Shown here piece after piece: positions 2,307 to 30,122 of a stretch of DNA of 32,690 nt. The DNA comes from Pseudomonadota bacterium (GTDB taxonomy: Bacteria; Pseudomonadota; Alphaproteobacteria; Paracaedibacterales; CAITNM01). Numbering within the stretch: the first letter of the stretch is position 1; every line of letters starts with the position of its first letter. The stretch lies in the NCBI GenBank assembly GCA_018062345.1, contig JAGOSL010000013.1:1-32690 (forward strand), given 5' to 3'. The position numbers were made by a program, and so were the translations under genes. Under the pieces are notes generated by a model that saw only the letters and a list, made by a program, of their open reading frames with translations, was not told the DNA's origin and did not search any database.

Positions 2307-2331
2307 AATATTTTCTCCTTTAACTTATTTT

Positions 2332-2358
2332 TTAGCAGCCATCGAATGACAGTGCTAA
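2332..2358 (-). promoter_or_regulatory. Degenerate CIRCE operator (HrcA site) before dnaK
   Basis: The minus strand reads TTAGCACTG, nine bases, then GGCTGCTAA. The CIRCE consensus is TTAGCACTC-N9-GAGTGCTAA, so the left arm matches 8 of 9 bases and the right arm 7 of 9, with exactly the right 9-base spacing. The outer six bases of the arms form a perfect inverted repeat. It begins one base after the -10 box and ends 25 bases before the ATG, where HrcA binding would block transcription. No hrcA gene is in the window. Confidence 0.75.
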
Positions 2359-2359
2359 C

Positions 2360-2388
2360 AATATACAAAATTTTTACAAAAAAATCAA
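2360..2388 (-). promoter_or_regulatory. dnaK promoter
   Basis: On the minus strand, TTGATT (2388-2383), a 17-base spacer and TATATT (2365-2360) form a sigma-70-like promoter. The transcription start would fall inside the CIRCE element. No clear sigma-32 promoter (CTTGAA / CCCCAT type) was seen nearby. Confidence 0.6.
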
Positions 2389-29297: not shown

Positions 29298-30122
29298 ATG
29301 AAAACAACCAAAATAGAGAATTATCTTACTCAGTTTCAAGAAGAAAAACTTATAGAAAACTGGCAAGAACATTATAAAATGAAAGAAGAAAAAGAGCTTT
29401 TATTTGCTTTTAAGCCATGGGTTTTAAGCGTTGTACGAAAGTATCGGCATTATGGCATTTTGCATGAAGATTTAACTCAAGAAGCATGGCTGGGGCTAAG
29501 TGTTGCCTTACATAAATATGATTCAAGTCGAGGTGTGCGTTTTTCAAGCTACGCAAGATGGTGGGTAAACGCTTATTGTCAGGATTATGTAATGCGTAAT
29601 TGGTCTATTGTAAGGGTTGGAACTACCACCACTCACAAAAAATTATTTTTTCAGCTACGTTATTTAAAGCGGGACTTAGAAAAAATTGAAACCCAATACT
29701 TTGAGCCCCAAATTGCTAACGCAATTGCAAAAGAGCTAAACACTTCAATAAATGAAGTGCAATCTATGTACGATAAAATCAGTCAAAAGGATAAATATTT
29801 AGACCAAGCAATAAACGCAGATCGTGAACTTACTTTCATTGATGTGCTAGCTGATGAAAGTGAATTGGTAGATTCTATTCTTATCCAAGAAGAGGAACAG
29901 AATTTTTACATAAGTACTTGTAAACGATTTCACGAATTCCTAAGTGAGCGAGAGCTAGATATTTTAGAAAAAAGACATATTAAAGACCCCTCTCAAACAC
30001 TAGAGGAACTTAGCATCTGCCATGGAATCACAAAAGAAAGAGTACGACAGATTGAAAAACATGCTATCAGAAAACTTAGAAAATCGCTTGTTTTCTCGAG
30101 CTTAAGACACATAAATCATTAA
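29298..30122 (+). CDS. rpoH: RNA polymerase heat-shock sigma factor RpoH (sigma-32)
   Basis: Directs RNA polymerase to heat-shock promoters. The 274-residue protein has sigma region 2 with DLTQEAWLGLSVALHKYD and the -10-recognition stretch RFSSYARWWV (81-90), the RpoH box HKKLFFQLRYLK near 113-124 that separates RpoH from RpoD, and region 4 with the helix-turn-helix LEELSICHGITKERVRQIE. It is about 15-25 residues shorter than typical RpoH, mainly at the N-terminus. The ATG lies after AT-rich tandem repeats with no ribosome site. The presence of RpoH fits dual heat-shock control beside the CIRCE element of dnaK. Confidence 0.95.
   Translation: MKTTKIENYLTQFQEEKLIENWQEHYKMKEEKELLFAFKPWVLSVVRKYRHYGILHEDLTQEAWLGLSVALHKYDSSRGVRFSSYARWWVNAYCQDYVMRNWSIVRVGTTTTHKKLFFQLRYLKRDLEKIETQYFEPQIANAIAKELNTSINEVQSMYDKISQKDKYLDQAINADRELTFIDVLADESELVDSILIQEEEQNFYISTCKRFHEFLSERELDILEKRHIKDPSQTLEELSICHGITKERVRQIEKHAIRKLRKSLVFSSLRHINH

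Follow-up and report, generated by a model that had tools for sequence, protein, structure and literature searches.

A conserved CIRCE-type inverted repeat at the dnaK promoter, a probable HrcA operator, in an alphaproteobacterial order

The dnaK promoter region

The window analyzed here, the whole stretch of 32,690 nucleotides, carries dnaK on its minus strand, and the features of the promoter region are listed in Table 1. Read 5' to 3' on this strand, TTGATT is followed by TATATT, a single G, the inverted repeat, AAGGAG and then the ATG at 2306, with the left edge of the repeat placed 52 bases upstream of the start codon. The arms of the repeat, TTAGCACTG (2358-2350) and GGCTGCTAA (2340-2332), are separated by 9 bases. 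On its 3' side dnaK is followed by a tRNA-Gly gene and the beginning of tuf instead of dnaJ, and no position for dnaJ was found in this genome.

Table 1. Coordinates of the features discussed in the text
Feature	Position	Strand	Basis
CIRCE-type inverted repeat TTAGCACTG-tcattcgat-GGCTGCTAA, putative HrcA operator of dnaK	2332..2358	-	sequence and conservation
-10-like box TATATT	2360..2365	-	sequence; kept across the order
-35-like box TTGATT, 17-base spacer to the -10 box	2383..2388	-	sequence
Shine-Dalgarno-like AAGGAG	2315..2320	-	sequence
dnaK, 638 aa	390..2306	-	NCBIfam DnaK equivalog, 1062 bits
Divergent RpoH-like sigma factor, second-paralogue type; outside the operator	29298..30122	+	profile scores, identity
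Element of the detached dnaJ (G015, G033)	L234 site 1497, L235 site 1494		

The repeat was compared with the 27-bp CIRCE reference, the inverted repeat TTAGCACTC-N9-GAGTGCTAA, for which 18 arm positions are scored, and 15 of these are identical at the dnaK site. The first-pass annotation had described arms with a 9-base spacing and a 15/18 match, which is borne out on the minus strand at 2358-2332, and had placed the repeat one base past the -10 box, where it indeed lies, with only G2359 between TATATT (2365-2360) and its first arm. The repeat is thus situated in the promoter and 5' leader of a heat-shock gene, as is expected of CIRCE, and is predicted to overlap the transcription start site of dnaK.

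At up to 3 mismatches, the dnaK site is the only CIRCE match in the window, where 0.02 would be expected from shuffles, and no window position gives a match with 4 mismatches. Shuffling of the 350 bases upstream of dnaK produced no equally good match (0/3000). A chance origin of the repeat is ruled out by these shuffles together with the conservation described below.

Just upstream of the -35 box, at 2400-2411 on the minus strand, TTAGCATGCTTA consists of two outer CIRCE half-arms placed back to back with no spacer. This arrangement was not seen in the dnaK upstream sequences of the congeners that were compared, and it is probably due to chance.

HrcA and CIRCE sites in the genome

The genome (1.46 Mb, 31 contigs, 99.8% complete) was searched for hrcA, its groE upstream region was compared with that of dnaK, and the whole was scanned for CIRCE, as the first-pass annotation had proposed. 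A single intact hrcA is present on contig C18, directly followed by grpE, and its product is full length and scores 321 bits against the TIGR00331 cut-off of 197. A perfect CIRCE is found on contig C15, 75 bases upstream of the start codon of groES. In the pattern scan the groES and dnaK sites are the only two CIRCE-like sites of the genome within 3 mismatches, and no CIRCE was found upstream of hrcA or of the rpoH-like gene of the window, the best candidate having 9 mismatches at both.

Among the relatives, hrcA was found in 54 of the 58 genomes searched, and none of them has a second hrcA, which speaks against a second paralogue as the reader of the variant dnaK element. A protein search did not find groES in assemblies G003, G007, G010 and G011, three of which are at least 97% complete; these are probably assembly gaps.

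Conservation of the dnaK element

Conservation was assessed in the 36 same-order genomes for which the 5' end of dnaK was readable. TTAGCA-N15-TGCTAA is present upstream of dnaK in all 36, being exact in 35 and carrying one mismatch in the other, and it always sits 1 or 2 bases past a TATATT-like box, which reads TATATTG/A in 30/36 sequences. The exact element did not occur in any of 7200 shuffled upstream sequences. When one sequence per genus is taken (14 genera, 8 families), the arm columns hold 1.0-2.0 bits, with the outer arm columns nearly all at 2.0, while the columns of the spacer and flanks mostly stay below 0.6 bits; the -35 and -10 boxes are prominent too, and outside the arms and these boxes the dnaK upstream region is near background. 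The repeat in close relatives and hrcA in the genome, on both of which the first-pass annotation had made its reading depend, are present, and the element is a conserved variant of a known operator, CIRCE.

In other orders the element is found in one (G047) of the 13 genomes in which the dnaK upstream sequence was read, and a class-wide scan gave scattered further dnaK cases in G125, G169, G195, G248 and G292. Of 78 named dnaK records from Alphaproteobacteria that include enough upstream sequence, 5 carry it at up to one outer mismatch: three match contigs of this order, one is a G169 contig, and one is titled Holosporales bacterium. The contrast that the first-pass annotation drew with the usual alphaproteobacterial pattern, in which CIRCE is located at groE and dnaK is often under RpoH, holds in the sampled records and in the literature.

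It is very improbable that the element works at the RNA level, as a stem-loop at the 5' end that stabilizes or regulates the dnaK transcript. CIRCE elements are commonly located where the transcript begins, and each of the outer six pairs can form in 35 or 36 of the 36 sequences; however, the outer arms keep an invariant sequence, beyond mere complementarity, and the inner pairs are often broken, with 6/20 paired in 27/36 sequences, 7/19 in 15/36 and 8/18 in 3/36. Most of the left arm would also be left untranscribed at a normal spacing between the -10 box and the start. The broken inner pairs disfavor an RNA hairpin as the main cause of conservation.

Two types of site at groES and dnaK

The groES sites of the same genomes are canonical CIRCE with 0-1 mismatches in 29/29 cases, while the dnaK sites across the order show 1-6 mismatches. 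The two types differ systematically: at position 20, 29/29 groES sites have G and 26/27 dnaK sites have C, and at position 6, 29/29 groES sites have C and 19/27 dnaK sites have G. In the rest of the order the dnaK site usually reads TTAGCAG[A/T][C/G]-N9-[T/G]GCTGCTAA, and in the other families the element matches CIRCE at 12-15 of 18 positions, which makes it CIRCE-like rather than consensus. Its inner triplets are CTG/GGC in the window, and the order otherwise has GAC, GAG or GTC combined with TGC or GGC. The conservation of the element is asymmetric, with T at position 9 and G at position 19 each in 13 of 14 genus representatives. Random decay of CIRCE is ruled out, as the variant is consistent in 8 families and stands beside canonical groES sites in the same genomes; the word degenerate, applied to the window site in the first-pass annotation, is accordingly misleading for what is a consistent subtype across the order.

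The genus of the window is intermediate between the two types. The canonical-like left half TTAGCACTG is shared by the window species and five congeners, and in G007, G008 and G010 the site reads TTAGCACTG..GAGTGCTAA, a 17/18 match (1 mismatch) at the identical promoter position. A single site that slides between both spellings is most easily explained by one protein reading both, and the hybrid and near-canonical dnaK sites of this genus point to one repressor, HrcA. The half-sites TTAGCAG or CTGCTAA also occur before groES in other alphaproteobacterial families, with variant half-sites in G302 (TTAGCACTC..TGCTGCTAA), G112, G120, G132, G135, G271 and G273, and likewise point to one reader.

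The variant is not confined to dnaK. In G015 and G033, dnaJ is located apart from dnaK and has its own TTAGCAGTC..(G/A)ATTGCTAA element upstream (Table 1). A dnaK-type element, TTAGCAGTC..TGCTGCTAA, is also found in G027 at L233 site 1418, near a contig end, where it precedes a 101-aa ORF of unknown function.

The systematic difference between dnaK and groES sites within the same genomes and the asymmetric conservation at positions 9 and 19 would suit a repressor other than HrcA reading the dnaK element, the likeness of the arms being due to ancestry or convergence and dnaK and groE being controlled separately. Against reading by HrcA, too, are the non-palindromic inner triplets at dnaK, with positions 8/18 pairable in the 3/36 sequences noted above, and the almost complete separation of the two site types in the same genomes, which would equally fit a dedicated non-HrcA regulator of dnaK. 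Such a repressor is nevertheless unlikely: the 27-bp spacing and the outer arms are identical to those of CIRCE, a single genus has hybrid as well as near-canonical forms at one and the same place in the promoter, and the same variant half-sites are found at groES in other families. No candidate for such a regulator came up, in an analysis that was not a systematic search for one.

Sigma factors

The first-pass annotation had reported that rpoH is retained at 29298. An RpoH-like ORF does exist there, but it is a divergent second paralogue, and the main copy was not found. Its scores are far below the curated RpoH cut-offs (203.5 versus 323.1 bits for TIGR02392 and 222.3 versus 315 for NF005693), and it shares 35% identity with the main RpoH of a congener. 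The congeners mostly have one TIGR02392 copy at 316-322 bits and one at 187-219 bits, and by its score the gene of the window falls among the weaker second copies. Neither the window assembly nor G007 yielded a main RpoH of the 316-322-bit type, and a 6.6-kb DNA query around the main rpoH from G005 gave no match in G000, an empty answer that is uninformative; the main rpoH region may be located in an assembly gap rather than lost. Two RpoH-like genes of the genus are found at 29298-30122 of the window and at 6243-7139 of L277, and the region upstream of the former is extremely AT-rich.

The dnaK promoters were scored with the Sinorhizobium meliloti RpoH1 consensus as quoted in PMC4843759, CTTGAA-N15/16-CCTATAT (13 positions). 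Read in this way, the window promoter is TTTGAT-N16-TGTATAT, with 4/13 mismatches. In G007, G008 and G010 the -35 box suits neither sigma factor well. In family f6 (G022, G026, G029, G033) the dnaK promoter CTTGAC-N16-CCTATAT matches the consensus at 12/13 positions, and the Bradyrhizobium dnaKJ operon is listed as sigma32-dependent in the title of a reference of PMC3989490, both of which favor dnaK being chiefly under RpoH, with the repeat as a minor or vestigial modifier. This arrangement is nonetheless improbable, since the match falls to 4-5/13 mismatches in the genus of the window while the operator nears the canonical form, the main RpoH is missing from the genes found in this genome, and a vestigial element would not stay nearly invariant across 14 genera. 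HrcA control of dnaK may be compatible with RpoH, as the 12/13 match in f6 suggests, and dual control by HrcA and RpoH is plausible ancestrally and less clear in the genus of the window.

CIRCE or near-CIRCE sites are also located directly before rpoH at L228 site 1459 (G106), L229 site 1524 (G245) and L010 site 1501 (G051), the identity of the downstream gene having been checked at the protein level for G106 and G245 and by position for G051. This suggests that HrcA may control rpoH in three other alphaproteobacterial families.

Proposed control of dnaK by HrcA

The repeat at 2358-2332 is most probably a promoter-proximal operator for HrcA, a variant CIRCE that would control dnaK. The placing of dnaK under HrcA in the first-pass annotation is thus supported in silico by the single hrcA, the groES CIRCE and the order-wide repeat. 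An HrcA dimer, kept active by GroEL, would bind TTAGCA..TGCTAA right after the -10 box, thereby blocking transcription from the TTGATT-N17-TATATT promoter; under heat or a load of unfolded protein HrcA would be released, and dnaK would be induced together with groESL. Because the inner triplets depart from the optimum, repression is probably weaker at dnaK than at groE, which would result in a higher basal level of DnaK. We infer the binding of HrcA, its relative strength and its release on heating from sequence comparison.

A more far-reaching interpretation can be put forward tentatively. The dnaK operator across the order might constitute a separate, selectively maintained class with a TTAGCAG-N13-CTGCTAA core, which would split the control of dnaK and dnaJ from that of groE through either a graded, weaker HrcA site or a second regulator, with the genus of the window shifting towards canonical CIRCE as the RpoH promoter features fade.

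Comparison with known systems

CIRCE is usually treated as a single near-invariant sequence, and its targets other than groESL differ between lineages. In the order studied here two spellings coexist, one at groES and the other at dnaK and the detached dnaJ, and the surroundings of both have meanwhile diverged, which implies long maintenance. The order offers a natural test of the tuning of HrcA affinity from one main chaperone system to the other, as well as of shifts of dnaK control between RpoH and HrcA. Scans with canonical CIRCE at up to 3 mismatches miss most of its dnaK sites. No literature joining HrcA with Holosporales was found in a search that lay mostly outside the subscription journals, and the dnaK subtype is judged, rather than proven, to be novel.

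The dnaK element shares with the CIRCE/HrcA operator the 27-bp layout, the 9-base spacer, the outer TTAGCA..TGCTAA and the location in the promoter region of a major chaperone gene, in a genome with an hrcA-grpE pair; it differs in the inner triplets, which are changed at dnaK alone, while groES is canonical. In Caulobacter and rhizobia the described CIRCE target is groESL (PMC8119881, PMC3989490), where HrcA/CIRCE is combined with a sigma-factor promoter, as at groES of the window genome, but in this genome dnaK carries a site too. In Geobacter, CIRCE is found before hrcA-grpE-dnaK-dnaJ and also before rpoH (PMC545781). CIRCE ahead of transcription units containing dnaK is thus common to both, although the sites of Geobacter are canonical and precede an operon led by hrcA, whereas dnaK of the window forms a unit by itself and has a variant site of its own.
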